Part shown: piece after piece, positions 13,701-51,200 of the stretch
Layout of the letters: every line of letters starts with the position of its first letter
Numbering within the stretch: position 1 is the first letter of the stretch
Assembly (NCBI GenBank): GCA_023078555.1
Contig: CM041197.1
Coordinates: forward strand, 11,009,257-11,073,256
Direction of reading: 5' to 3'
Source of the DNA: Ulva prolifera
Taxonomy: Eukaryota; Chlorophyta; Ulvophyceae; Ulvales; Ulvaceae
DNA: 64,000 bases
Program-made: the position numbers and the translations under genes
The notes under the pieces: generated by a model
Database searches by the model: none
What the model saw: only the letters and a program-made list of their open reading frames with translations
Told to the model about the DNA's origin: nothing

Positions 13701-16700
13701 TGTCTTCCTGATTGTATTTGCATTGTTGCTGTAGACAAGGGCAATTCCGAAGGGTTTGCCTTGCCGTGGTGCCCAAGCATATTGCAGTGCACTGCACCGT
13801 ACTGCTGGCATCTGCGTGTGTTGCTTGGCTGATACAGGTGTAGCGCACTCGATCATGAGAATGTGTCTGCAGGTGCTGGTCGCCAGCCTGCCGGTGGGGC
13901 TGGCCTCGGTGGACTGCAACGGCGCCGAGACGTCCCTCCTGGACTGCACCTCCAGCCAGAACGACCTACAGCAATGCGGCATTCCTGACACCAACCTCAC
14001 AGATGCCACAGTCCTGACCTGCGCAAACACTGCAGACAGTGCGCTCTCCTGCATGTCAGCCCAGAAACCCGGGTAGCCAAGGCTTTCCGACCCCTGCTGC
14101 CTTGTGTTGCGCTACAATCTGTGTCGTGGCATATGCATTTTTTTCCTTGCTGCCCAACACATTTGAACAAACAATGTCTTGGCTTGACTTCAGAGCGCCC
14201 CTGCCAAGAAGACAAAGACCACTCAATGAAGCAGTGGTGTGCGGCATATGCCAAATAGTTGGTCTTAATGCTCCGATCTCCCACGGCTGCAATATGCATG
14301 CTAGGCCGTGGAGTATGCATTCAGGCATGTCTCTGCATAATCAGATCGGCGCTGGGCTCTGGCCTTCCAATTACTCCATTTGTTGTCTTCTCGTGATGTG
14401 AACGAGCTATCCAGGTTGCGACAAGACACCCCCAATGGAGGAGGGCTCGGTCCGCCTGCGCGGCGGCTTCGGCACGCCCTGCGACCCCGTGCACACCGGC
14501 TTCGTCGAGGTCTTCCACTTTGATGAATGGGGCGCCATCTGCGAAGGCGATGACAGAACGGACCGGCTCGCTGCGGATGTCATCTGCCGCCAGCTCGGTT
14601 TCCCCCACGGCACGCTTGTTGACCCCCTGTCCAATCCGGCTGACCGCGAAACCACGCCGAATGAGTACGGCGGTTACGATTACTCGCCATACATTCCCGA
14701 TGAGGAGGAAGCTTCGGAGGATCAGGAGCGCTTCTGGCTTAACCGGGTGCAGTGCCGGGGACCCGAGGAGAGGCTGCTTGAGTGCAACCTCGGCCAGGGC
14801 TTCCGCACAAACAATGGGGGCTGCACAGGGAACAGGGTGGTGCGGCTGACGGTGGCATGCCGCACGTTCCCCGTGACCGAGGCCCTCGAGGACGTCACCA
14901 CCCCGGGAGCAGGTGCGGTGTCGCTATCTCTGCAATGACCTGCGGTTGTCTCAGGCTGCTGCCGAGGTGCCGACCTGCTGCCTCTGTATGTAGTGGGTTG
15001 ACGGTGTAGCAGGGATCCAGACGCGTATACTATATCAGCGTGTGCCCCGCTTGGGATGCCGCCGGTTCCAATTGCCGTAGATGTTCTGGGATTCGGCCGA
15101 GGCTTTGGCATCAGCCTGATATTGTTGATAAGTGATCCACCTAATAGAATGGACAGCCACCCTGCCAGCGTAAACAGCCGAAAATAACATGCCCAACGAA
15201 AAGATTTATGCCCGTCCGCCGTGTCTACGTATACGTATACAAACGTCTACGTATACGTCTACGTATACGTATACAAACGTCTACGTCTACGTATACGTCT
15301 ACAACCAATGTGTGGTGACCACAGTGACTTTGCAGAGGACGGTGACGTAAGGCTAGTCGATGAGGTGTCCGTTTCCAACTGGAAGGTTGGCCGCCTCGAG
15401 GTCTTCTTCGAGGGCTCCTGGAGCCAGGTGTGTGCCCGGGAGTTTGACGGGCCCAATGCAGACGTCGCCTGCCGCCAGCTCGGCTTCGGCGCCGGCTCGG
15501 TCGGACCGAACCGCGCCAACGGCGCTCCGGCAATATCCGACCGCCTGGTCTTCCCGGTGGTGGCACTGACAACGCCTGGCTGTAATGGCACCGAGGACTC
15601 GCTTCTGGACTGTGGCCCCTTCACCGGCTTCATCTCGCGCTTTACTGATCGTGACTGTTTCGGTGACAATAACCCCGGGCTCACGCTGGCCTGCGTCGCC
15701 ACGCCTGAAGAAGGTGTGCAACTTCATCATATGCCTGTGGTCTGGTACTGGACACCTGGAAATGATACGCCTTGTTATTATCTACATTCCATGCATCGTA
15801 CGGGCAGAGATGCCTCCACTGTATGAACCATCTGCTCACAAGTCATGAGGGCTGTGACATCGTCTGTTGGCAACCTGTCTGTTGGCAACCTGTACGGACG
15901 GGTCATCCTCGTATTCTGGGGTATATCAGCGTCTGTTTGTCTGAGTTGCAGCTTACCCCTTCAATGCTAGGCTTTGAAGGGTGAAGCTTCTGAATGATCG
16001 AAAATCAAATGATTTTTGGAGTGTACGAGGCAAAAGCCCTGCCTGCAGGGGAGGAGCGAGCTCTGCGGCTGACGGACGGCGGGGACGGCGGCGCCACCTC
16101 CGAAGGCCGCGGTATCCTCGAGATCTTCCATGCTGGCGCCTGGGGCACCTTCTGCGAGGGCGAGGGCTTTGGGCCGTATGACTACGGCCCAGCTCTGACC
16201 GAGGTGCGTGTGCGCGTGCAGAATCTCTAGCTCTAGCTCAACTATTTGTATCCATGCAGTCCTACTAGTTGTACCCCTGTAGCCCTACTAGTAGTGCCAC
16301 TGTACGTCTAAGTGGGTGGTCGCGCATATTAGAGCCATAATTATGACATGACCGCCACATAAGCCCGCGCATAAATCCGCACTTATCCCCTTACCCATTC
16401 GAGGCATCTTTATGCGCGGGCACCGCGTGTTTATGAGCCCGGGTCGGGGGATCGGCGATACTCTGCTTTGGTAGGTGGGCTGTGTGTACCGTCAAAGACG
16501 CTATTCCCCGCAGTGCATCTCGCACGCTGNGGCTTAACCGGGTGCAGTGCCGGGGACCCGAGGAGAGGCTGCTTGAGTGCAACCTCGGCCAGGGCTTCCG
16601 CACAAACAATGGGGGCTGCACAGGGAACAGGGTGGTGCGGCTGACGGTGGCATGCCGCACGTTCCCCGTGACCGAGGCCCTCGAGGACGTCACCACCCCG

Positions 16701-19700
16701 GGAGCAGGTGCGGTGTCGCTATCTCTGCAATGACCTGCGGTTGTCTCAGGCTGCTGCCGAGGTGCCGACCTGCTGCCTCTGTATGTAGTGGGTTGACGGT
16801 GTAGCAGGGATCCAGACGCGTATACTATATCAGCGTGTGCCCCGCTTGGGATGCCGCCGGTTCCAATTGCCGTAGATGTTCTGGGATTCGGCCGAGGCTT
16901 TGGCATCAGCCTGATATTGTTGATAAGTGATCCACCTAATAGAATGGACAGCCACCCTGCCAGCGTAAACAGCCGAAAATAACATGCCCAACGAAAAGAT
17001 TTATGCCCGTCCGCCGTGTCTACGTATACGTATACAAACGTCTACGTATACGTCTACGTATACGTATACAAACGTCTACGTCTACGTATACGTCTACAAC
17101 CAATGTGTGGTGACCACAGTGACTTTGCAGAGGACGGTGACGTAAGGCTAGTCGATGAGGTGTCCGTTTCCAACTGGAAGGTTGGCCGCCTCGAGGTCTT
17201 CTTCGAGGGCTCCTGGAGCCAGGTGTGTGCCCGGGAGTTTGACGGGCCCAATGCAGACGTCGCCTGCCGCCAGCTCGGCTTCGGCGCCGGCTCGGTCGGA
17301 CCGAACCGCGCCAACGGCGCTCCGGCAATATCCGACCGCCTGGTCTTCCCGGTGGTGGCACTGACAACGCCTGGCTGTAATGGCACCGAGGACTCGCTTC
17401 TGGACTGTGGCCCCTTCACCGGCTTCATCTCGCGCTTTACTGATCGTGACTGTTTCGGTGACAATAACCCCGGGCTCACGCTGGCCTGCGTCGCCACGCC
17501 TGAAGAAGGTGTGCAACTTCATCATATGCCTGTGGTCTGTAGCTGGACACCTGGAAATGATACGCCTTGTTATTAATCTACATTCCATGCATCGTACGGG
17601 CAGAGATGCCTCCACTGTATGAACCATCTGCTCACATCATGAGGGCTGTGACATCGTCTGTTGGCAACCTGTCTGTTGGCAACCTGTACGGACGGGTCAT
17701 CCTCGTATTCTGGGGTATATCAGCGTCTGTTTGTCTGAGTTGCAGCTTACCCCTTCAATGCTAGGCTTTGAAGGGTGAAGCTTCTGAATGATCGAAAATC
17801 AAATGATTTTTGGAGTGTACGAGGCAAAGCCCTGCCTGCAGGGGAGGAGCGAGCTCTGCGGCTGACGGACGGCGGGGACGGCGGCGCCACCTCCGAAGGC
17901 CGCGGTATCCTCGAAGATCTTCCATGCTGGCGCCTGGGGCACCTTCTGCGAGGGCGAGGGCTTTGGGCCGTATGACTACGGCCCAGCTCTGACCGAGGTG
18001 CGTGTGCGCGTGCAGAATCTCTAGCTCTAGCTCAACTATTTGTATCCATGCAGTCCTACTAGTTGTACCCTGTAGCCCTACTAGTAGTGCCACTGTACGT
18101 CTAAGTGGGTGGTCGCGCATATTAGAGCCATAATTATGACATGACCGCCACATAAGCCCGCGCATAAATCCGCACTTATCCCCTTACCCATTCGAGGCAT
18201 CTTTATGCGCGGGCACCGCGTGTTTATGAGCCGGGTCGGGGGATCGGCGATACTCTGCTTTGGTAGGTGGGCTGTGTGTACCGTCAAAGACGCTATTCCC
18301 CGCAGTGCATCTCGCACGCTGTTTCATTGTGTCAACGAGACAGAAGAGTTTGATCTGCGCCGCCGCCGTGACGCAATCTCGTGGCCAGCAGAGCTACACA
18401 GAAGTCGTGCGTTTGCCATGCCCACCAGAATGGCCACTCGTGGCGAATCTGAAGGCGCATGGCAAACGAACGACCTCTGCGTAGCGCTGCTCACGGCACG
18501 TGAGTACGCCTCCGCACAGTGACAGCAGTTTCTTATTCAAACGATGTTAATCGCAGAACATTGACTGGGCTGCCTGCAGTCGCCGGCCATGCAAGCGGCT
18601 GGTACGACCCAGACACAAGCTATGTCGGCATGCAACTTCACAAAGTCAACTTCAAGTGAGTGGCGTCTGTGCAGTTATCAGTGAGTTATGTATAAAGCGA
18701 CTGTGGCTCTTGTTCAGTACAACGTGGGATATCTTAGAGATAAATGCAGCTCGTGCAGTTGTGTGTCTCTTACCTTGCTTCATGAGAAGAGCACCCGATC
18801 TGCAATATTCCAAGACTACGTACTGCACTACAAATCAATAGAAGGCACGCCATGACACAGTAGGGGCCAAGCATAGGTACAGCGTAGCTAGGCGGGTCTG
18901 TTTGCGTGACCTTGTTCAACCGATGGACATCCATCATATTGTCTCGCAGAAACATACAGCGTGCCTGTTGATCCTGCAACATGATGTGTCTTGTTAGGAG
19001 GCATGGCGTGATCACGGCGTACGTTGGTCTGCACGTCCAATCGTTCGGGGATCCCTGTAGCCATGTGACGACAGTACCGCGGGGCCCGCGAAACCCGTGG
19101 CGCACCTGTGGCGACAGGGCACCGCCGCTGCAAGGTGCCGCTAGTACCGCGGGGCCCGCGGAACTCGTGGCACTCTTGTGGCGACAGGGCACCGCCGCTG
19201 CAAGGTGCCGCTAGTACCGCGGGGCCCGCGGAACTCGTGGCACTCTTGTGGCAACAGGGCACCGCCGCTGCAAGGTGTCACTAGTGCCGCGGCGCCCGCG
19301 GAACTCGTAACAGCCCTGTCGCAACATCGAAGGCAGCGCGTGCCTTTCGCCACGAGGCCCCAACACAGTGTTGGAAATCGCAGCTGCATCCACGGTGACG
19401 CAATTCTGGAGCTGCGAAAAAGAAATCGAACATCAAGCATCTAATGTATGGCAAGCGGCAAAGACCATTCAACACACGCACACGGTGACGACATGGACAT
19501 GGCTGAGTATCGCACCATCCCGATCCATCAGAGACTTGAAACACAATTACTGTGGTGTGTGCGCTTTGCCAACGTAGTTTACCGTTGATCATGTCGTCGA
19601 CCTGCGAACCATCGCGTTGTCAACAACGCAAATCGCGGCGCCAGTGCACCGCAACTGCTTTCACTGGATACACTGTACAGCGGATACCTACCACATGTCC

Positions 19701-22700
19701 TTCATATGCGGACGTGGGGTTTTCACGAGCGTCAACAACGATGACATGCCAACAACAGTGCATCGACCTTGCTACTCCGTACACCTGTGTGGCCATGGAG
19801 CTGTTCCAGACAAGCACCATATCATTTGATCTGCTACACTGCATGCTTGTCTAAGTGGTTGCGTTGGAAGGAGAGAGGCTTGGGAAATTGCACTGAATGG
19901 CAACTATGTCGTACGGCAACGTGCTTCTGGCGACCAAGCGCCACTGCTGCGACGGAGCAATCAGCAGCTGATGTAAGGATAACAAATTTCAGCATTTAAC
20001 ATGCAATGCCGCAGAGGCGTCATGTCACACGGACCAGTGTTGAGCGTCGTCAAAACGACAGCCCCTGTATCAGACACCTGTAAACGGCCAAAAGGCCCAC
20101 CACACTGCACTTCAGCTAGAAGAAACCATACCATGAACATAATTTGGAGATCTTAGACTGCCCGCTGGCTGGGCAGCGGTCGGACTTTCTTGTGATTGTG
20201 AGAAGCTAACAAAAGCACGTCGGCCTAAACGGGATGGAATCACAGACTAAATGCCGTAAGCGGTAACCATTACAATCAATGCCATCAGGACAAGTATTCG
20301 TGTCTGCGAAGCGCCCACTTCTGTCGAACATTTGCAGCGAACGTTTCAGTACGCCGCGGGAACATGTGGTGCCTACCGCATTCGCCAGCACCTCATCGCT
20401 CAAGATGGTGGGTCAAGCAATGAAGTATCAACGCGTGTTTCACAACCTTTACTGGCAACAAAGCTAGCGGGCGGTGATCGCGCCTCGCCCAGGCTACTGT
20501 TGCATGGGGACATTCGACGCCACGGCAACATGCATGAGGCCCGCCCGAGCTGGTGGTTTGGACAACCGACAGAACGCAGAACCGGTGCTGCATCCAGACC
20601 ATCGTAGATACTTCAACAGTTCAGTGGAAATATCTTCTGATATTTGCGCAAGGTTGGAACAGGCAATCATGCAGCGTTGCAGGCAACAGTGCACGAGTTC
20701 GAAGCATTGGACTATGCGCCGCTTTCAGACATTGCTAAGTGCATGCGTGATGTGATCGTGTCAACTGTATCGTATGTTCTATGCGCTCGCGTACGGTGTC
20801 TGTGTGGCGTACAGTATGAGTTTCTATTGTTTGAAGACGGGCCTCCCGTCCGTGCATCTTACGCATAATTACGGTGACTGCACGTCGCTGGCTGCATCCA
20901 AGCTTTCTACAGGTACTTTACAGTAGCTCCTATGTAAGGTTATGTCAAAACCGCTTTGCTCGGGGAAAGGCACAAACGGTTTGGTGTGCGTGGCGTGATC
21001 GTAGTGAATGTCATTCCACATGAGCTATAGCCTCACTGTCTCGATGCCAAATTTACAATATGCCTCCTACAGCATGAAAATGGGATCGTGATGATATGTT
21101 GCAGCGGTGCTAGATGACCTCCTACTGTACCTGCCCAAGCGGTGTGTGCAGCTCATTGCAGTGGCATAATTTCTCGTGGATGCTTGCACATTCATTCACA
21201 GTGCACGGCGTCGCCATCTTTGTGTAAGGATTACTGCGTTGGCCGTGGAAACACACGATAACACACCTCAAAGTCCAATAGGATTCGGCTCAGTAAATTT
21301 AGATTTACTTACTTTACACCTCGGCCAACACACAGCTCCGTATAACGAGCAACCAAGCACGATAGACATAATACATGTACAGGGCGAGCTGCCACCTTAA
21401 CTTAAACATGCACGCAGGATCTAGGCTCTCGCAGGATGCAGGAGTCACAGGAGCCTTGATTGCCTGTGAAGCAGGGCATTTATTGGGTGCATGATCAGAC
21501 GTGAAACAAACAGTACAAAGGAATACCATGCCAAGTCCTACTTCGATTAAGCTGCCATTGGGTGCAGCATTGCTCCATTGTATGTAGTCACAGATTGTAT
21601 CCTGGTTTGCATCTGAATTTATATAATCACTTCATGGCAGATGCTGGTATCCGTGATGGCACGCAGCAATACTCATTGTGGGCACATTGCCTAGACATCC
21701 ATACCCAGCCTGCTCTGATCAAGCTGAGAATTGGTGCAGTGCAACTCCAGTATATGCACTCACAGATTGTATCCTGGTTTGCATCTGAATTTATATAATC
21801 ACTTCATGGCAGATGCTGGTATCCGTGATGGCACGCAGCAATACTCATTGTGGGCACATTGCCTAAACATCCACTCCCAGCCTGCTCTGATCAAGCTGAG
21901 AATCGGTGCAGTGCAACTCCAGTATATGCACTCACAGATTGTATCCTGGTGTGCATCTGAATTTAGATAATCACTTCATGGCAGATGCTGGTATCCGTGC
22001 TAGCACGCAGCAATACACATTGTGGCCACATTGCCTAGACATCCACTCCCAGCCTGCTCTGATCAAGCTGAGAATTGGTGCAGTGCAACTCCAGTATATG
22101 CACTCACAGATTGTATCCTGGTTTGCATCTGAATTTAGATAATCACTTCATGGCAGATGCTGGTATCCGTGATGGCACGCAACAATACACATTGTGGGCA
22201 CATTGCCTAGACATCCACTCCCAGCCTGCTCTGATCAAGCTGAGAATTGGTGCAGTGCAACTTCAGTATATGCACTCGCAGATTGTATCCTGGTTTGCAT
22301 CTGAATTTATATAATCACTTCATTGCAGATGCTGGTATCCGTGATGGCACGCAGCAATACTCATTGTGGGCACATTGCCTAGACATCCATACCCAGCCTG
22401 CTCTGATCAAGCTGAGAATTGGTGCAGTGCAACTCCAGTATATGCACTCACATATTGTATCCTGGTTTGCATCTGAATTTATATAATCACTTCATTGCAG
22501 ATGCTGGTATCCGTGATGGCACGCAGCAATACTCATTGTGGGCACATTGCCTAGACATCCATACCCAGCCTGCTCTGATCAAGCTGAGAATTGGTGCAGT
22601 GCAACTCCAGTATATGCACTCACATATTGTATCCTGGTTTGCATCTGAATTTATATAATCACGTCATTGCAGATGCTGGTATCCGTGCTGGCACGCAACA

Positions 22701-25700
22701 ATACACATTGTGGGCACATTGCCTAAACATCCACTCCCAGCCTGCTCTGATCAAGCTGAGAATTGGTGCAGTGCTGCTCCAGTATATGAACTCACAGATT
22801 GTATCCTGGTTTGCATCTGAATTTATATAATCACTTCATGGCAGATGCTGGTATCCGTGATGGCACGCAACAATACACATTGTGGGCACATTGCCTAGAC
22901 ATCCACTCCCAGCCTGCTCTGATCAAGCTGAGAATTGGTGCAGTGCAACTTCAGTATATGCACTCGCAGATTGTATCCTGGTTTGCATCTGAATTTATAT
23001 AATCACTTCATTGCAGATGCTGGTATCCGTGCTGGCACGCAACAATACACATTGTGGGCACATTGCCTAGACATCCACTCCCAGCCTGCTCTGATCAAGC
23101 TGAGAATTGGTGCAGTGCAACTCCAGTATATGCACTCACATATTGTATCCTGGTTTGCACCTGAATTTATATAATCACGTCATTGCAGATGCTGGTATCC
23201 GTGCTGGCACGCAACAATACACATTGTGGGCACATTGCCTAAACATCCACTCCCAGCCTGCTCTGATCAAGCTGAGAATTGGTGCAGTGCTGCTCCAGTA
23301 TATGAACTCACAGATTGTATCCTGGTTTGCATCTGAATTTATATAATCACTTCATGGCAGATGCTGGTATCCGTGATGGCACGCAACAATACACATTGTG
23401 GGCACATTGCCTAGACATCCACTCCCAGCCTGCTCTGATCAAGCTGAGAATTGGTGCAGTGCAACTCCAGTATATGCACTCACATATTGTATCCTGGTTT
23501 GCATCTGAATTTATATAATCACGTCATTGCAGATGCTGGTATCCGTGCTGGCACGCAACAATACACATTGTGGGCACATTGCCTAAACATCCACTCCCAG
23601 CCTGCTCTGATCAAGCTGAGAATTGGTGCAGTGCTACTCCATTCAAGCTAAAGTTCTGCACATTACTGATCCGCAGTGTGCAAATGTGAATGCACAGCAG
23701 CACTTCATGGCAGATGGCGTCACGGTGTGATGGCGCCGAGCATGTCCATACCTTGGCACGCCCCAGATTGGAGCAACAGGCTCGGCACGATACGCGCGAC
23801 TGCCTCGAGATACTACTGCTTGATGCCAGTCACTTAATGCCAATTCATTTGCCGCAGGATGCGGATTGTATCATCGGGTAGGCATGTCAAAATGTTGGTT
23901 GCGAAGCTCGATGGCATGTTTTGAGGATGAACAATCCCAATATTGCATCTCTCCACCATGTAAAGCAACCTTACACGCCTACAAGTATTTATCATTCGTC
24001 CCACCAGTTCGGATGGTTTTGCATACGACTCCGGTATAACTGGAACTTGAGGCACAATGTAGATTTACTCTTGTGTTAGCTTTCCTCAGTCTCAGTCCAC
24101 CTGCACAAGAAAACTGTGTTCGCGCGTGTCTCTCACCAATTGTGATGGATGCAGGTTCTGACCTGATAACCCGATGTATGGTGATCATGGATCAGTACCA
24201 ATCCAAACGGTTGAGAAATTGCCATGAATCAAACATGGCTGGGATGTGACAGTCATGTGATATGATTGACACTTAACTGTGCGTCATGTCAGTCGCAGTT
24301 CATACATGTATTGATTGCAAGTGCGATTCGAGGTAGCTTTGGCATATGGAACTGAAACAACAACGCATGGATGACATACAGAATTTCACCGCATGGGCAC
24401 TTACTTCTCCTCAACAAATATATTAACCGGAAACAGACCTTTGATGGGTTCATCCGAGGCGTACCTGTATCGGGTGCGTTCGTGGTGACGATGGGTTGAC
24501 ACAAAAGCATACAATCAATGCATCAAGGCATTCCTACGGAACCATCTCTCCAAACTGCGGTATCAGAAATGCAGGAGATGTTCATTCTGAGGCGGATCGG
24601 CAGAAGTTGTTGGCGAGAAGGCGGATACGATTTGCATGTGTCCGGTAAATGCAGAACACGATCTGACGATGATACGCTTGAACGTTATGACCATCTCGAT
24701 TTGCATCAGTCTGAAACACTTTGTGACATCTTGGCATGACGGGCACGCAAAGGCCGGACGCCAGGACTGTGAAACCAGCTGACCATCGGGACTGCGCCAC
24801 TTGTTGTCAAGCACGGATCACAGGCGACACTGCACATCGAAAGACGCGAAAAGGTCAGGACAGGTCGATGCATGCCGCCTGTAGAAGCTGATGTCGTAAA
24901 CTGATACCGTATCAAGTTGTAGTCGAGGCGAATCATTGAAGTCAAATCATGATTGCGCCGCGGGTCTGACGGGTGCCCTTCCGGACACTTGACCTGCCGT
25001 CAACGAGCGGGAACAAGATCGACGAAGTCCAGATTGTTTGGAAAACACGAACTGATCAACTTGAAGCCCTTTTTTGTCGTTCTTTGGAGCAGTTTCAGCC
25101 CTCTGGAGAACATGTAAGGCCTGAGCACTGAACAGCTCCCGCAGAAGGCCCATGTGAACAGCCTCTCGTCGCAGCCATAACTGCAATTACAGATCTGTGC
25201 CTTTGTAAGTACTCGTTATCGCTGAATCAAGGAAGCCTGATGTAGGAGCTGTACATTCGTTCGCGTAGGCACTAACGTAGCTGCGCTTGCCCGATCGCTC
25301 CCGGAGTCAACGACCAAGCGTCGCGGAAGTCAAAACTGTGCCGAAATCCAGTATTTACCTCGGCCCAGGATGCGCACGATTGGTTTACGGCGCTGTGCAG
25401 TCATATGGCGACGGTGCTTGCCAGCCTTTTCGAGAAATACATGGTGTGTCGCACGCTCATAATTCCGCGCATAAGGCCGGTCCCATACTTATGCGCGACC
25501 ACCCAGTGCGACGTATCCCTACTAGTTGTACCCCTGTAGCCCTACAAGTAGTACCCCTGTAGCCCTGCTGGTAGTACCCCTGTAGCCCTACTATTAATAT
25601 TACAATATTTGTACCGCTGTACCCCTGCTAGTAGTACCCCTGTAGCCCCTCTTGCTGCACAGTGCAGCCCATGCAGCTTGCTGACCACCAGGCCCGAATC

Positions 25701-39200: not shown

Positions 39201-42200
39201 AGACAAGGGCAATTCCGAAGGGTTTGCCTTGCCGTGGTGCCCAAGCATATTGCAGTGCACTGCACCGTACTGCTGGCATCTGCGTGTGTTGCTTGGCTGA
39301 TACAGGTGTAGCGCACTCGATCATGAGAATGTGTCTGCAGGTGCTGGTCGCCAGCCTGCCGGTGGGGCTGGCCTCGGTGGACTGCAACGGCGCCGAGACG
39401 TCCCTCCTGGACTGCACCTCCAGCCAGAACGACCTACAGCAATGCGGCATTCCTGACACCAACCTCACAGATGCCACAGTCCTGACCTGCGCAAACACTG
39501 CAGACAGTGCGCTCTCCTGCATGTCAGCCCAGAAACCCGGGTAGCCAAGGCTTTCCGACCCCTGCTGCCTTGTGTTGCGCTACAATCTGTGTCGTGGCAT
39601 ATGCATTTTTTTCCTTGCTGCCCAACACATTTGAACAAACAATGTCTTGGCTTGACTTCAGAGCGCCCCTGCCAAGAAGACAAAGACCACTCAATGAAGC
39701 AGTGGTGTGCGGCATATGCCAAATAGTTGGTCTTAATGCTCCGATCTCCCACGGCTGCAATATGCATGCTAGGCCGTGGAGTATGCATTCAGGCATGTCT
39801 CTGCATAATCAGATCGGCGCTGGGCTCTGGCCTTCCAATTACTCCATTTGTTGTCTTCTCGTGATGTGAACGAGCTATCCAGGTTGCGACAAGACACCCC
39901 CAATGGAGGAGGGCTCGGTCCGCCTGCGCGGCGGCTTCGGCACGCCCTGCGACCCCGTGCACACCGGCTTCGTCGAGGTCTTCCACTTTGATGAATGGGG
40001 CGCCATCTGCGAAGGCGATGACAGAACGGACCGGCTCGCTGCGGATGTCATCTGCCGCCAGCTCGGTTTCCCCCACGGCACGCTTGTTGACCCCCTGTCC
40101 AATCCGGCTGACCGCGAAACCACGCCGAATGAGTACGGCGGTTACGATTACTCGCCATACATTCCCGATGAGGAGGAAGCTTCGGAGGATCAGGAGCGCT
40201 TCTGGCTTAACCGGGTGCAGTGCCGGGGACCCGAGGAGAGGCTGCTTGAGTGCAACCTCGGCCAGGGCTTCCGCACAAACAATGGGGGCTGCACAGGGAA
40301 CAGGGTGGTGCGGCTGACGGTGGCATGCCGCACGTTCCCCGTGACCGAGGCCCTCGAGGACGTCACCACCCCGGGAGCAGGTGCGGTGTCGCTATCTCTG
40401 CAATGACCTGCGGTTGTCTCAGGCTGCTGCCGAGGTGCCGACCTGCTGCCTCTGTATGTAGTGGGTTGACGGTGTAGCAGGGATCCAGACGCGTATACTA
40501 TATCAGCGTGTGCCCCGCTTGGGATGCCGCCGGTTCCAATTGCCGTAGATGTTCTGGGATTCGGCCGAGGCTTTGGCATCAGCCTGATATTGTTGATAAG
40601 TGATCCACCTAATAGACTGGACAGCCACCCTGCCAGCGTAAACAGCCGAAAATAACATGCCCAACGAAAAGATTTATGCCCGTCCGCCGTGTCTACGTAT
40701 ACGTATACAAACGTCTACGTCTACGTATACGTCTACAACCAATGTGTGGTGACCACAGTGACTTTGCAGAGGACGGTGACGTAAGGCTAGTCGATGAGGT
40801 GTCCGTTTCCAACTGGAAGGTTGGCCGCCTCGAGGTCTTCTTCGAGGGCTCCTGGAGCCAGGTGTGTGCCCGGGAGTTTGACGGGCCCAATGCAGACGTC
40901 GCCTGCCGCCAGCTCGGCTTCGGCGCCGGCTCGGTCGGACCGAACCGCGCCAACGGCGCTCCGGCAATATCCGACCGCCTGGTCTTCCCGGTGGTGGCAC
41001 TGACAACGCCTGGCTGTAATGGCACCGAGGACTCGCTTCTGGACTGTGGCCCCTTCACCGGCTTCATCTCGCGCTTTACTGATCGTGACTGTTTCGGTGA
41101 CAATAACCCCGGGCTCACGCTGGCCTGCGTCGCCACGCCTGAAGAAGGTGTGCAACTTCATCATATGCCTGTGGTCTGTAGCTGGACACCTGGAAATGAT
41201 ACGCCTTGTTATTAATCTACATTCCATGCATCGTACGGGCAGAGATGCCTCCACTGTATGAACCATCTGCTCACATCATGAGGGCTGTGACATCGTCTGT
41301 TGGCAACCTGTCTGTTGGCAACCTGTACGGACGGGTCATCCTCGTATTCTGGGGTATATCAGCGTCTGTTTGTCTGAGTTGCAGCTTACCCCTTCAATGC
41401 TAGGCTTTGAAGGGTGAAGCTTCTGAATGATCGAAAATCAAATGATTTTTGGAGTGTACGAGGCAAAAGCCCTGCCTGCAGGGGAGGAGCGAGCTCTGCG
41501 GCTGACGGACGGCGGGGACGGCGGCGCCACCTCCGAAGGCCGCGGTATCCTCGAGATCTTCCATGCTGGCGCCTGGGGCACCTTCTGCGAGGGCGAGGGC
41601 TTTGGGCCGTATGACTACGGCCCAGCTCTGACCGAGGTGCGTGTGCGCGTGCAGAATCTCTAGCTCTAGCTCAACTATCTGTATCCATGCAGTCCTACTA
41701 GTTGTACCCCTGTAGCCCTACTAGTAGTGCCACTGTACGTCTAAGTGGGTGGTCGCGCATATTAGAGCCATAATTATGACATGACCGCCACATAAGCCCG
41801 CGCATAAATCCGCACTTATCCCCTTACCCATTCGAGGCATCTTTATGCGCGGGCACCGCGTGTTTATGAGCCCGGGTCGGGGGATCGGCGATACTCTGCT
41901 TTGGTAGGTGGGCTGTGTGTACCGTCAAAGACGCTATTCCCCGCAGTGCATCTCGCACGCTGTTTCATTGTGTCAACGAGACAGAAGAGTTTGATCTGCG
42001 CCGCCGCCGTGACGCAATCTCGTGGCCAGCAGAGCTACACAGAAGTCGTGCGTTTGCCATGCCCACCAGAATGGCCACTCGTGGCGAATCTGAAGGCGCA
42101 TGGCAAACGAACGACCTCTGCGTAGCGCTGCTCACGGCACGTGAGTACGCCTCCGCACAGTGACAGCAGTTTCTTATTCAAACGATGTTAATCGCAGAAC

Positions 42201-45200
42201 ATTGACTGGGCTGCCTGCAGTCGCCGGCCATGCAAGCGGCTGGTACGACCCAGACACAAGCTATGTCGGCATGCAACTTCACAAAGTCAACTTCAAGTGA
42301 GTGGCGTCTGTGCAGTTATCAGTGAGTTATGTATAAAGCGACTGTGGCTCTTGTTCAGTACAACGTGGGATATCTTAGAGATAAATGCAGCTCGTGCAGT
42401 TGTGTGTCTCTTACCTTGCTTCATGAGAAGAGCACCCGATCTGCAATATTCCAAGACTACGTACTGCACTACAAATCAATAGAAGGCACGCCATGACACA
42501 GTAGGGGCCAAGCATAGGTACAGCGTAGCTAGGCGGGTCTGTTTGCGTGACCTTGTTCAACCGATGGACATCCATCATATTGTCTCGCAGAAACATACAG
42601 CGTGCCTGTTGATCCTGCAACATGATGTGTCTTGTTAGGAGGCATGGCGTGATCACGGCGTACGTTGGTCTGCACGTCCAATCGTTCGGGGATCCCTGTA
42701 GCCATGTGACGACAGTACCGCGGGGCCCGCGAAACCCGTGGCGCACCTGTGGCGACAGGGCACCGCCGCTGCAAGGTGCCGCTAGTACCGCGGGGCCCGC
42801 GGAACTCGTGGCACTCTTGTGGCGACAGGGCACCGCCGCTGCAAGGTGCCGCTAGTACCGCGGGGCCCGCGGAACTCGTGGCACTCTTGTGGCAACAGGG
42901 CACCGCCGCTGCAAGGTGTCACTAGTGCCGCGGCGCCCGCGGAACTCGTAACAGCCCTGTCGCAACATCGAAGGCAGCGCGTGCCTTTCGCCACGAGGCC
43001 CCAACACAGTGTTGGAAATCGCAGCTGCATCCACGGTGACGCAATTCTGGAGCTGCGAAAAAGAAATCGAACATCAAGCATCTAATGTATGGCAAGCGGC
43101 AAAGACCATTCAACACACGCACACGGCGACGACATGGACATGGCTGAGTATCGCACCATCCCGATCCATCAGAGACTTGAAACACAATTACTGTGGTGTG
43201 TGCGCTTTGCCAACATAGTTTACCGTTGATCATGTCGTCGACCTGCGAACCATCGCGTTGTCAACAACGCAAATCGCGGCGCCAGTGCACCGCAACTGCT
43301 TTCACTGGATACACTGTACAGCGGATACCTACCACATGTCCTTCATATGCGGACGTGGGGTTTTCACGAGCGTCAACAACGATGACATGCCAACAACAGT
43401 GCATCGACCTTGCTACTCCGTACACCTGTGTGGCCATGGAGCTGTTCCAGACAAGCACCATATCATTTAATCTGCTACACTGCATGCTTGTCTAAGTGGT
43501 TGCGTTGGAAGGAGAGAGGCTTGGGAAATTGCACTGAATGGCAACTATGTCGTACGGCAACGTGCTTCTGGCGACCAAGCGCCACTGCTGCGACGGAGCA
43601 ATCAGCAGCTGATGTAAGGATAACAAATTTCAGCATTTAACTTGCAATGCCGCAGAGGCGTCATGTCACACGGACCAGTGTTGAGCGTCGTCAAAACGAC
43701 AGCCCCTGTATCAGACACCTGTAAACGGCCAAAAGGCCCACCACACTGCACTTCAGCTAGAAGAAACCATACCATGAACATAATTTGGAGATCTTAGACT
43801 GCCCGCTGGCTGGGCAGCGGTCGGACTTTCTTGTGATTGTGAGAAGCTAACAAAAGCACGTCGGCCTAAACGGGATGGAATCACAGACTAAATGCCGTAA
43901 GCGGTAACCATTACAATCAATGCCATCAGGACAAGTATTCGTGTCTGCGAAGCGCCCACTTCTGTCGAACATTTGCAGCGAACGTTTCAGTACGCCGCGG
44001 GAACATGTGGTGCCTACCGCATTCGCCAGCACCTCATCGCTCAAGATGGTGGGTCAAGCAATGAAGTATCAACGCGTGTTTCACAACCTTTACTGGCAAC
44101 AAAGCTAGCGGGCGGTGATCGCGCCTCGCCCAGGCTACTGTTGCATGGGGACATTCGACGCCACGGCAACATGCATGAGGCCCGCCCGAGCTGGTGGTTT
44201 GGACAACCGACAGAACGCAGAACCGGTGCTGCATCCAGACCATCGTAGATACTTCAACAGTTCAGTGGAAATATCTTCTGATATTTGCGCAAGGTTGGAA
44301 CAGGCAATCATGCAGCGTTGCAGGCAACAGTGCACGAGTTCGAAGCATTGGACTATGCGCCGCTTTCAGACATTGCTAAGTGCATGCGTGATGTGATCGT
44401 GTCAACTGTATCGTATGTTCTATGCGCTCGCGTACGGTGTCTGTGTGGCGTACAGTATGAGTTTCTATTGTTTGAAGACGGGCCTCCCGTCCGTGCATCT
44501 TACGCATAATTACGGTGACTGCACGTCGCTGGCTGCATCCAAGCTTTCTACAGGTACTTTACAGTAGCTCCTATGTAAGGTTATGTCAAAACCGCTTTGC
44601 TCGGGGAAAGGCACAAACGGTTTGGTGTGCGTGGCGTGATCGTAGTGAATGTCATTCCACATGAGCTATAGCCTCACTGTCTCGATGCCAAATTTACAAT
44701 ATGCCTCCTACAGCATGAAAATGGGATCGTGATGATATGTTGCAGCGGTGCTAGATGACCTCCTACTGTACCTGCCCAAGCGGTGTGTGCAGCTCATTGC
44801 AGTGGCATAATTTCTCGTGGATGCTTGCACATTCATTCACAGTGCACGGCGTCGCCATCTTTGTGTAAGGATTACTGCGTTGGCCGTGGAAACACACGAT
44901 AACACACCTCAAAGTCCAATAGGATTCGGCTCAGTAAATTTAGATTTACTTACTTTACACCTCGGCCAACACACAGCTCCGTATAACGAGCAACCAAGCA
45001 CGATAGACATAATACATGTACAGGGCGAGCTGCCACCTTAACTTAAACATGCACGCAGGATCTAGGCTCTCGCAGGATGCAGGAGTCACAGGAGCCTTGA
45101 TTGCCTGTGAAGCAGGGCATTTATTGGGTGCATGATCAGACGTGAAACAAACAGTACAAAGGAATACCATGCCAAGTCCTACTTCGATTAAGCTGCCATT

Positions 45201-48200
45201 GGGTGCAGCATTGCTCCATTGTATGTAGTCACAGATTGTATCCTGGTTTGCATCTGAATTTATATAATCACTTCATGGCAGATGCTGGTATCCGTGATGG
45301 CACGCAGCAATACTCATTGTGGGCACATTGCCTAGACATCCATACCCAGCCTGCTCTGATCAAGCTGAGAATTGGTGCAGTGCAACTCCAGTATATGCAC
45401 TCACAGATTGTATCCTGGTTTGCATCTGAATTTATATAATCACTTCATGGCAGATGCTGGTATCCGTGATGGCACGCAGCAATACTCATTGTGGGCACAT
45501 TGCCTAAACATCCACTCCCAGCCTGCTCTGATCAAGCTGAGAATCGGTGCAGTGCAACTCCAGTATATGCACTCACAGATTGTATCCTGGTGTGCATCTG
45601 AATTTAGATAATCACTTCATGGCAGATGCTGGTATCCGTGCTAGCACGCAGCAATACTCATTGTGGCCACATTGCCTAGACATCCACTCCCAGCCTGCTC
45701 TGATCAAGCTGAGAATTGGTGCAGTGCAACTCCAGTATATGCACTCACAGATTGTATCCTGGTTTGCATCTGAATTTAGATAATCACTTCATGGCAGATG
45801 CTGGTATCCGTGATGGCACGCAACAATACACATTGTGGGCACATTGCCTAGACATCCACTCCCAGCCTGCTCTGATCAAGCTGAGAATTGGTGCAGTGCA
45901 ACTTCAGTATATGCACTCGCAGATTGTATCCTGGTTTGCATCTGAATTTATATAATCACTTCATTGCAGATGCTGGTATCCGTGATGGCACGCAGCAATA
46001 CTCATTGTGGGCACATTGCCTAGACATCCATACCCAGCCTGCTCTGATCAAGCTGAGAATTGGTGCAGTGCAACTCCAGTATATGCACTCACATATTGTA
46101 TCCTGGTTTGCATCTGAATTTATATAATCACTTCATTGCAGATGCTGGTATCCGTGATGGCACGCAGCAATACTCATTGTGGGCACATTGCCTAGACATC
46201 CATACCCAGCCTGCTCTGATCAAGCTGAGAATTGGTGCAGTGCAACTCCAGTATATGCACTCACATATTGTATCCTGGTTTGCATCTGAATTTATATAAT
46301 CACGTCATTGCAGATGCTGGTATCCGTGCTGGCACGCAACAATACACATTGTGGGCACATTGCCTAGACATCCACTCCCAGCCTGCTCTGATCAAGCTGA
46401 GAATTGGTGCAGTGCAACTTCAGTATATGCACTCGCAGATTGTATCCTGGTTTGCATCTGAATTTATATAATCACTTCATTGCAGATGCTGGTATCCGTG
46501 CTGGCACGCAACAATACACATTGTGGGCACATTGCCTAGACATCCACTCCCAGCCTGCTCTGATCAAGCTGAGAATTGGTGCAGTGCAACTCCAGTATAT
46601 GCACTCACATATTGTATCCTGGTTTGCACCTGAATTTATATAATCACGTCATTGCAGATGCTGGTATCCGTGCTGGCACGCAACAATACACATTGTGGGC
46701 ACATTGCCTAAACATCCACTCCCAGCCTGCTCTGATCAAGCTGAGAATTGGTGCAGTGCTGCTCCAGTATATGAACTCACAGATTGTATCCTGGTTTGCA
46801 TCTGAATTTATATAATCACTTCATGGCAGATGCTGGTATCCGTGATGGCACGCAACAATACACATTGTGGGCACATTGCCTAGACATCCACTCCCAGCCT
46901 GCTCTGATCAAGCTGAGAATTGGTGCAGTGCAACTCCAGTATATGCACTCACATATTGTATCCTGGTTTGCATCTGAATTTATATAATCACGTCATTGCA
47001 GATGCTGGTATCCGTGCTGGCACGCAACAATACACATTGTGGGCACATTGCCTAAACATCCACTCCCAGCCTGCTCTGATCAAGCTGAGAATTGGTGCAG
47101 TGCTACTCCATTCAAGCTAAAGTTCTGCACATTACTGATCCGCAGTGTGCAAATGTGAATGCACAGCAGCACTTCATGGCAGATGGCGTCACGGTGTGAT
47201 GGCGCCGAGCATGTCCATACCTTGGCACGCCCCAGATTGGAGCAACAGGCTCGGCACGATACGCGCGACTGCCTCGAGATACTACTGCTTGATGCCAGTC
47301 ACTTAATGCCAATTCATTTGCCGCAGGATGCGGATTGTATCATCGGGTAGGCATGTCAAAATGTTGGTTGCGAAGCTCGATGGCATGTTTTGAGGATGAA
47401 CAATCCCAATATTGCATCTCTCCACCATGTAAAGCAACCTTACACGCCTACAAGTATTTATCATTCGTCCCACCAGTTCGGATGGTTTTGCATACGACTC
47501 CGGTATAACTGGAACTTGAGGCACAATGTAGATTTACTCTTGTGTTAGCTTTCCTCAGTCTCAGTCCACCTGCACAAGAAAACTGTGTTCGCGCGTGTCT
47601 CTCACCAATTGTGATGGATGCAGGTTCTGACCTGATAACCCGATGTATGGTGATCATGGATCAGTACCAATCCAAACGGTTGAGAAATTGCCATGAATCA
47701 AACATGGCTGGGATGTGACAGTCATGTGATATGATTGACACTTAACTGTGCGTCATGTCAGTCGCAGTTCATACATGTATTGATTGCAAGTGCGATTCGA
47801 GGTAGCTTTGGCATATGGAACTGAAACAACAACGCATGGATGACATACAGAATTTCACCGCATGGGCACTTACTTCTCCTCAACAAATATATTAACCGGA
47901 AACAGACCTTTGATGGGTTCATCCGAGGCGTACCTGTATCGGGTGCGTTCGTGGTGACGATGGGTTGACACAAAAGCATACAATCAATGCATCAAGGCAT
48001 TCCTACGGAACCATCTCTCCAAACTGCGGTATCAGAAATGCAGGAGATGTTCATTCTGAGGCGGATCGGCAGAAGTTGTTGGCGAGAAGGCGGATACGAT
48101 TTGCATGTGTCCGGTAAATGCAGAACACGATCTGACGATGATACGCTTGAACGTTATGACCATCTCGATTTGCATCAGTCTGAAACACTTTGTGACATCT

Positions 48201-51200
48201 TGGCATGACGGGCACGCAAAGGCCGGACGCCAGGACTGTGAAACCAGCTGACCATCGGGACTGCGCCACTTGTTGTCAAGCACGGATCACAGGCGACACT
48301 GCACATCGAAAGACGCGAAAAGGTCAGGACAGGTCGATGCATGCCGCCTGTAGAAGCTGATGTCGTAAACTGATACCGTATCAAGTTGTAGTCGAGGCGA
48401 ATCATTGAAGTCAAATCATGATTGCGCCGCGGGTCTGACGGGTGCCCTTCCGGACACTTGACCTGCCGTCAACGAGCGGGAACAAGATCGACGAAGTCCA
48501 GATTGTTTGGAAAACACGAACTGATCAACTTGAAGCCCTTTTTTGTCGTTCTTTGGAGCAGTTTCAGCCCTCTGGAGAACATGTAAGGCCTGAGCACTGA
48601 ACAGCTCCCGCAGAAGGCCCATGTGAACAGCCTCTCGTCGCAGCCATAACTGCAATTACAGATCTGTGCCTTTGTAAGTACTCGTTATCGCTGAATCAAG
48701 GAAGCCTGATGTAGGAGCTGTACATTCGTTCGCGTAGGCACTAACGTAGCTGCGCTTGCCCGATCGCTCCCGGAGTCAACGACCAAGCGTCGCGGAAGTC
48801 AAAACTGTGCCGAAATCCAGTATTTACCTCGGCCCAGGATGCGCACGATTGGTTTACGGCGCTGTGCAGTCATATGGCGACGGTGCTTGCCAGCCTTTTC
48901 GAGAAATACATGGTGTGTCGCACGCTCATAATTCCGCGCATAAGGCCGGTCCCATACTTATGCGCGACCACCCAGTGCGACGTATCCCTACTAGTTGTAC
49001 CCCTGTAGCCCTACAAGTAGTACCCCTGTAGCCCTGCTGGTAGTACCCCTGTAGCCCTACTATTAATATTACAATATTTGTACCGCTGTACCCCTGCTAG
49101 TAGTACCCCTGTAGCCCCTCTTGCTGCACAGTGCAGCCCATGCAGCTTGCTGACCACCAGGCCCGAATCAGCAGTGCTTCCATGCCGTCCAAGGAGCAGT
49201 ACTAGTGTTGGGCCGCCATGCGGCATTGTTGGGGCTCCCATCCCATAATTCCACTGAAGCAATCTGAATTGTTCTATGTTATCGGGCCCCATGCCCCAGC
49301 ACGACGACCACCGTCAGCACTGTATTGGCTGCTATTTTGACCCGATGCGATATCAGGATTTTGTAGGTGTGGAAGGAGGTCACGCGATGACGGTAGAATG
49401 TGCTACCGCCATGACGATAGAATGTGCCCCTCATCCTGTATGCATGGAACCTGGTTAATCACCCACTCCTGGGGCCCACTCCTGGCCAGACAACAAATTG
49501 AACAACTTTGGTTGCGTGTATGCAGAGTGCCGCGGCGCTCGCATGTCGGGAGCTGGGCTTCGAGGACGGCGTCTTTGCCAACGTCGCGTCGGTCCCGGCC
49601 AACATCACGCTGTTGCCTGCCTGGCTTGGTGCCGTGCCCTGCGTTGGGGATGAGGCGACCCTGACAGACTGTGGACCCCTGCAGTTCGGCAACACGGAGA
49701 TGTGTGGCCTGACGCAGCGCCTCGTCTGCACATCCGGCGCGGAACCAGGCTCAGGTCTGCCCCTGCCAACTTCATTTACCGTTTGCCATTAATTTGTGCC
49801 GGTTCCCATGACTCCAGCATTATCGACCGCACTACTGTAACTTGAAAGCACATGCACAAGTGTCGCCAGGTTGAGCGTGGTGAAGTAACCCAGTGCAAAT
49901 TGTTGGTACACAATTCAGTGTGTGGCAACAGGCCCTGCGCGCTCCTACATGCACTATGCAATCTCACAGCAACAGCCTTGCAGCGCTCACAGTTGATTGA
50001 GACTACTGCATAAGAAAAGAGGTTGTCTGAATCATCACCTGCTCGAATCAGGCCCCGCCAGTCCTGATGCCTCAGCTCGTACGGCTCGCATGCATTCCCA
50101 GCAGGAATCAGATGCTGAGTTTAATATTCCTTGCAGGCCCATCCCGGGGTGAGGCCCGTCTCACCGGCGGCAGCGCCGACCCCGGCGGCGCCTGGGCCTA
50201 CGGCCGCCTCGAGGTCTCCGATGGGGAATTCTTCAGCTCCATCCGCGAGCCGAGATTCACCGAGCGGCTCGGCCGGCGCGGCGTGCAAGTCGCCTGCCGC
50301 TCCCTCGGCTTCTCTGCCGGCGCACAGATCCTGTCCACCAGGCTGTCGGCGCTGCCGGGGCCGTCTGGAGAGGTCGACACGCTCAGCCGCATCGTGTGCC
50401 AGGGAGATGAGGCAACGCTGGCAGACTGCGAGTTCTTGGGTGACTACTATTTCGACTACGGCCCGACCCTTGACGACGGCGCAGTGGCAATACTCTGCAG
50501 CAACCCCTCAGGTGTGCATGTGACATGTGTAGTGAACATATCTTATGTGGCGTGACGCCTTCAGTCAAAACGCGCACTCTCGTGGGGGACATGTATTTTG
50601 CCCCGTGTCCAGACTGTTGTGTCAGAGGCATATGATATACGATGCATCGACCAGCTGCACCTAGTGATACTCAAAACTCGTTGTTTGTGCACCCCTCTGG
50701 CGGCGTACAAGTCATGCTTCCATGGATCTTTTAGGTCCGCACAGACACAACACACGCATCTGCCTTTGGAGCAACATTTCACCGATTCATGTGCTGTGTG
50801 TATTACTCCATTCGATCTTGTAGAACTGTAATGCTCATTAGTCTTTCGGATGAGCTAACGGCGTATCAAAACTTGCAGGATGCTCCAGCAACGACAGCTC
50901 CCCGGCCCAGGGAGATGTCCGCCTTGTCGACCTCAACGGAGTCACCGCTCAGACCGCCCCCTGCGACGCTGTCCACTTTGGCGGCGTCGAGTTTTTCAAC
51001 GACGGCCTGTGGGGCCGCATCTGCAGTGGCCGCTTTGGAAGCTCGGAACAGGACTTCACTATCGATGCGAACGTCGTCTGCCGGCAGCTCGGCTTCCCTT
51101 TCGGCAGCCTCATTGACGTCGAGGAGACCCGAAACAGCACCGGCAACACTGTTGGCGCAGACTATGGTGACTACAATGCGCCGGGGGACATCGCATGGGC

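Follow-up and report, generated by a model that had tools for sequence, protein, structure and literature searches.

The 64-kb window analysed here (C2:11009257-11073256, the whole stretch of DNA under study) contains two adjacent copies of the same 1.8-kb sequence separated by a single N, and this tandem copy is very probably (we put the probability at about 0.94) an assembly artefact rather than a real feature of the locus. Copy 1 (14736..16529), taken as the end of a left contig, comprises the latter part of SRCR exon 4, exons 5 and 6, and 225 bases of a dispersed element. Copy 2 (16531..18321), taken as the start of a right contig, repeats that stretch with four private single-base indels. 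Positions without a prefix are those of the window; features written with two dots are on the plus strand, and the N (16530..16530), the apparent scaffold join, has no strand. The tandem copy is judged false because the N lies at the junction, no difference between the copies is common to sister units of the surrounding gene array, units U1, U2 and U4 of that array contain the stretch once, removal of one copy restores the unit length, and private indels are in excess in the overlap. The sequence-only reading had proposed an unmerged contig overlap that creates a false tandem duplication, and the position of the N, the single copy in the sister units, the restored length and the excess of private indels all support it, with two refinements: both copies carry errors, and one and the same locus is the likeliest, not the sole, source of the two contig ends.

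Copy 1 is 1,794 bases long, and copy 2 is 1,791 bases long. In a BLAST comparison of the two, 1788 of 1797 columns are identical, with 0 substitutions and 9 gap columns (E 0.0). The bases before the N match the bases after it end to end, and the N at 16530 sits exactly at the junction; the boundaries first read from the letters, 14736-16529 and 16531-18321 with the N at the join, proved exact when both contig ends were aligned. A 600-base query spanning the left edge (14736) matches U1-U4 in full and copy 2 by its last 100 bases only, so the start of copy 2 is abrupt and falls within an exon. The N, the sole one of the 64-kb window, most likely represents a scaffold gap. Where contigs overlap, a scaffolder may insert a single N. 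Masking was also considered as the source of this N and was rejected, as a lone N at a duplication junction is unlike the runs of 7,500 and 62,000 Ns that adjoin the region and that, by their round lengths, look like withheld sequence. A further single-N join, which would have pointed to a habit of this assembly, turned up neither in the other readable bases of the 244-kb piece that contains the window (~174.5 kb readable) nor in three further 10-kb samples.

Self-comparison of the 244-kb piece placed the ~24-kb units U1 to U5 at C2:10961498, 10985167, 11009305, 11034761 and 11058230, respectively. U3 is the unit that contains the N, U5 was visible over 15,027 bases, and a partial relative, U0, precedes U1. 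In the three other complete units, U1 and U2 (both outside the window) and U4, the stretch is single-copy and N-free. The counterpart in U4, the next unit, occupies 40204..41962, which accords with the earlier remark that unit 2 has the stretch once; the same is true of U1 and U2. U1 is 23,669 bases long, whereas U3 consists of 16,481 + 8,974 bases; without copy 2, U3 would measure 23,664 bases and without copy 1, 23,661 bases, so that removing either copy brings it to within 5-8 bases of the length of U1. Both copies carry the markers of U1 (a 34-base block and one substitution), which are missing from U2 and U4.

These comparisons make highly improbable a real 1.8-kb tandem duplication in which an ambiguous base or short gap fell at the junction by chance. 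Tandem repeats are common in this region, including the 24-kb units themselves and a 172-base minisatellite, which lends such a duplication some prior plausibility, but its junction would have to coincide exactly with the only N of the window, it is absent from U1, U2 and U4, its second copy starts mid-exon, and private indels are concentrated in both copies. A real duplication would be recognizable by a junction of continuous sequence; here the N interrupts the junction, which is not found in U1, U2 or U4.

The two copies were further compared in a six-row alignment with U1, U2, U4 and the partial unit U0a. All seven sites at which the copies differ are private to one copy, with U1, U2 and U4 agreeing each time with the other copy and U0a agreeing with these units at the six sites that it reaches. 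The private changes of copy 1, at 15745-15747, 15779 and 15841-15842, all fall in the stretch that separates two inferred exons; BLAST renders the first of them as two gaps, the six-row alignment as three substitutions. Those of copy 2 are the four single-base indels, at ~17825, 17914, 18067 and 18230. The overlap, with 3,586 bases in the two copies, holds 6 private indels of 1-3 bases, versus 2 in 87,835 other unit bases (Fisher p = 9.5e-8). This count leaves out the 15745-15747 change of copy 1 as well as private gaps of greater length, one of 6 bases in U1 and one of 7 in U2; it also drops the events of the U2 transposon block, although the bases of this block stayed in the 87,835. U1, U2 and U4 have no private 1-3-base indels inside the overlap. 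Counting against the artefact, the private changes lie away from the extreme contig ends, 688-785 bases before the N in copy 1 and ~1,295-1,700 bases after it in copy 2. Single-base run errors had been attributed to the second copy; the four private indels there agree with this assignment, but copy 1 has three private sites as well.

The differences between the copies thus look like sequencing errors rather than allelic variants, as in a homotype false duplication. Another very improbable explanation is a heterotype false duplication, in which the two copies would be the parental haplotypes of one place set side by side. This possibility gains some weight from the abstract of PMC9516828, which sets heterotype duplications against sequencing errors and calls the latter a minor source; it is opposed by the differing sites themselves, none of which is common to a sister unit and six of which are plain 1-2-base indels.

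Under the artefact explanation, the left contig (to 16529) and the right contig (from 16531) would overlap by ~1.79 kb within a 24-kb SRCR-gene unit, and scaffolding would have set them side by side with one N instead of merging the overlap. The left contig stops after the first 225 bases (16305..16529) of a dispersed element that is present in full in the right contig (18098..25512; 7,415 bases, bounded by inverted repeats and containing a 172-base minisatellite). A second complete element, at 41738-48981, is 7,244 bases long. About 905 bases of the element were compared with the genome. Outside the array they have four matches at 98-99% and a fifth that covers 353 bases; inside it they match four places in addition to the stub in copy 1. 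The element ends share an inverted repeat as judged by eye, and U0 offers, near C2:10961509, a site without the 7.4-kb element. The minisatellite inside the elements at 18098-25512 and 41738-48981 has 12 or 11 copies, and the longest stop-to-stop frame over 18098-25512, among the frames listed, is 146 aa. It is plausible that the left contig running into this element caused the break: the assembly would have stopped on entering a 7.4-kb element with 98-99% copies elsewhere, within an array of near-identical units. The private indels may reflect thin or ambiguous read support, and the real gene would have exons 4-5-6 once in U3.

Both contig ends probably derive from the same unit, although this goes beyond what sequence can show because the units are so alike. 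In a variant of the same explanation, which we consider rather unlikely, the ends would come from different A-type units and the N would hide at least one whole unit, the tandem copy being false all the same. The assembled units alternate A-B-A-B, and the markers found at both contig ends are those of the A type (U1, U3), not of the B type (U2, U4). Furthermore, U1 and copy 2 differ by 0 substitutions across the whole overlap; therefore, an apparent overlap like this one would arise with any A-type unit. There is, however, no positive sign of missing units, and the unit length is kept to within 5-8 bases across the N, though whole missing units would keep the length too. If the ends did come from different units, an array with the overlap merged would be falsely short.

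The SRCR unit array, as covered here, spans at least positions 49-62556 of the window and C2:10961498-11009304 to its left, with the units in A-B-A-B order and the dimers differing at ~0.01-0.03% of aligned sites. U1 and U3 differ at 5 of 19,356 sites and U2 and U4 at 2 of 19,197, compared with 13-17 differences per 19,184-19,185 sites in A-B pairs, where all of these counts were made outside the overlap and the U2 block and beyond the initial 1,850 bases of the unit; each pair also shows 1-4 gap runs besides the substitutions. Against U5, U3 has 2 differences within the first 1,823 unit bases and 24 within the ~1.7 kb that follow; against U1, the corresponding figures are 17 and 0. U3 thus switches from U5-like, up to unit position 1823, to U1-like, from 1895 onwards (window ~1864-1936). 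Unequal exchange between U1-like and U5-like units, perhaps yielding a 48-kb duplication, would be expected to leave such a pattern.

A broader reading, to which we give only tentative credence, is that the N marks the point where the assembler lost count in a copy-number-variable SRCR array, that the A-B-A-B order reflects a very young 48-kb duplication by unequal exchange, and that there may in truth be more units than were assembled, perhaps with differences in number from one individual of this seaweed to another. The same pattern could also arise if the assembler looped through the array and assembled the same DNA twice. Against one molecule assembled twice stands a 1,256-base element that is present in U2 and missing from U4, if both units were assembled rightly. 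The copies of the 48-kb repeat could possibly be haplotypes instead. Claims on copy number in the SRCR array need long-read support. The U2 element itself (C2:10991380-10992635, left of the window) is dispersed and has inverted-repeat ends; one other copy is identical to it base for base and several are near-identical. At the corresponding place, U1, U3 and U4 hold ~640 bases of other sequence.

The artefact would affect the annotation of the SRCR gene, for which exon edges were inferred from AG/GT and exon numbers are those of the sequence-only reading. SRCR identity was assigned with PF00530, with three of ten frames above the cut-off and one below it; exon 6 was assigned by the look of its translation. 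The SRCR match at 14492-14842 straddles position 14736, which places the start of copy 2 inside exon 4. Exon 5 of copy 1 (15336..15713; 378 bases, splice edges inferred from AG/GT) has a counterpart of equal length (378 bases) and identical translation in the false second copy (17131..17508). The SRCR-like exon 6 of copy 1 (16049..16203; 155 bases) has an intact frame that appears, from its translation, to encode a partial domain, whereas its counterpart in the false copy (17842..17997) is 156 bases long and frameshifted. In U4, exon 5 (40770-41147) and exon 6 (41482-41636, 155 bases) have the same translations as in copy 1. The frameshift reported for an SRCR exon of copy 2 is therefore confirmed: with 156 bases against 155 in copy 1 and U4, the SRCR frame is lost part way. 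As had been anticipated, counting copy 2 would invent exons, adding one full, one truncated and one frameshifted SRCR exon, and it would suggest an exon duplication or decay that very probably never happened.

A plastocyanin exon of this genome matches PDB entry 7pcy, the protein from Enteromorpha (Ulva) prolifera, at all 44 of 44 aligned residues, so that U. prolifera or a very close relative is the probable host. Genome-wide (88.9 Mb, 44 contigs), there are at least 151 SRCR matches, one of which, at 17178-17408 (profile positions 7-79 of 100), belongs to the false copy, which would thus add one extra match to the genome tally. Most of the matches listed are held by clusters on C1 (0.56-0.90 Mb), C2 (0.65-0.71 and 10.6-11.2 Mb) and C4 (0.1 and 0.45 Mb). 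Among the open-licence papers searched, no description of SRCR clusters in Ulva came up, nor anything relevant on single-N gaps at contig overlaps or on the Ulva prolifera assembly. The available text of PMC6733440 and PMC11428574 was of no help.

The case fits an already known assembly error, the homotype false duplication at an overlapping contig boundary. An Extended Data figure legend of PMC8081667 describes homotype false duplication from overlapping sequences at contig boundaries, with the overlap compared with read length; a break on entering a repeat, followed by scaffolding without a merge, as proposed here, would be of that type. According to the available part of PMC9516828, the signs by which false duplications are known include erroneous sequence and a gap that separates the copies, and a legend in that paper shows three ALDH2 exons put into ACAD10 by false duplication. 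Here, the tandem copies are on one scaffold with an apparent assembly gap, the N at 16530, between them. Unlike the type in the PMC8081667 legend, the present case has a gap of one N and a break within a gene array of high identity, which leaves the overlap ambiguous among units; the tandem copies, the gap between them, the position at a contig boundary and the unequal consensus quality are shared with it. The examples in the available part of PMC9516828 were checked with reads, whereas the present one is known from sequence alone, but it resembles the false gene gains described there both in its false exons and in the gap between the copies.
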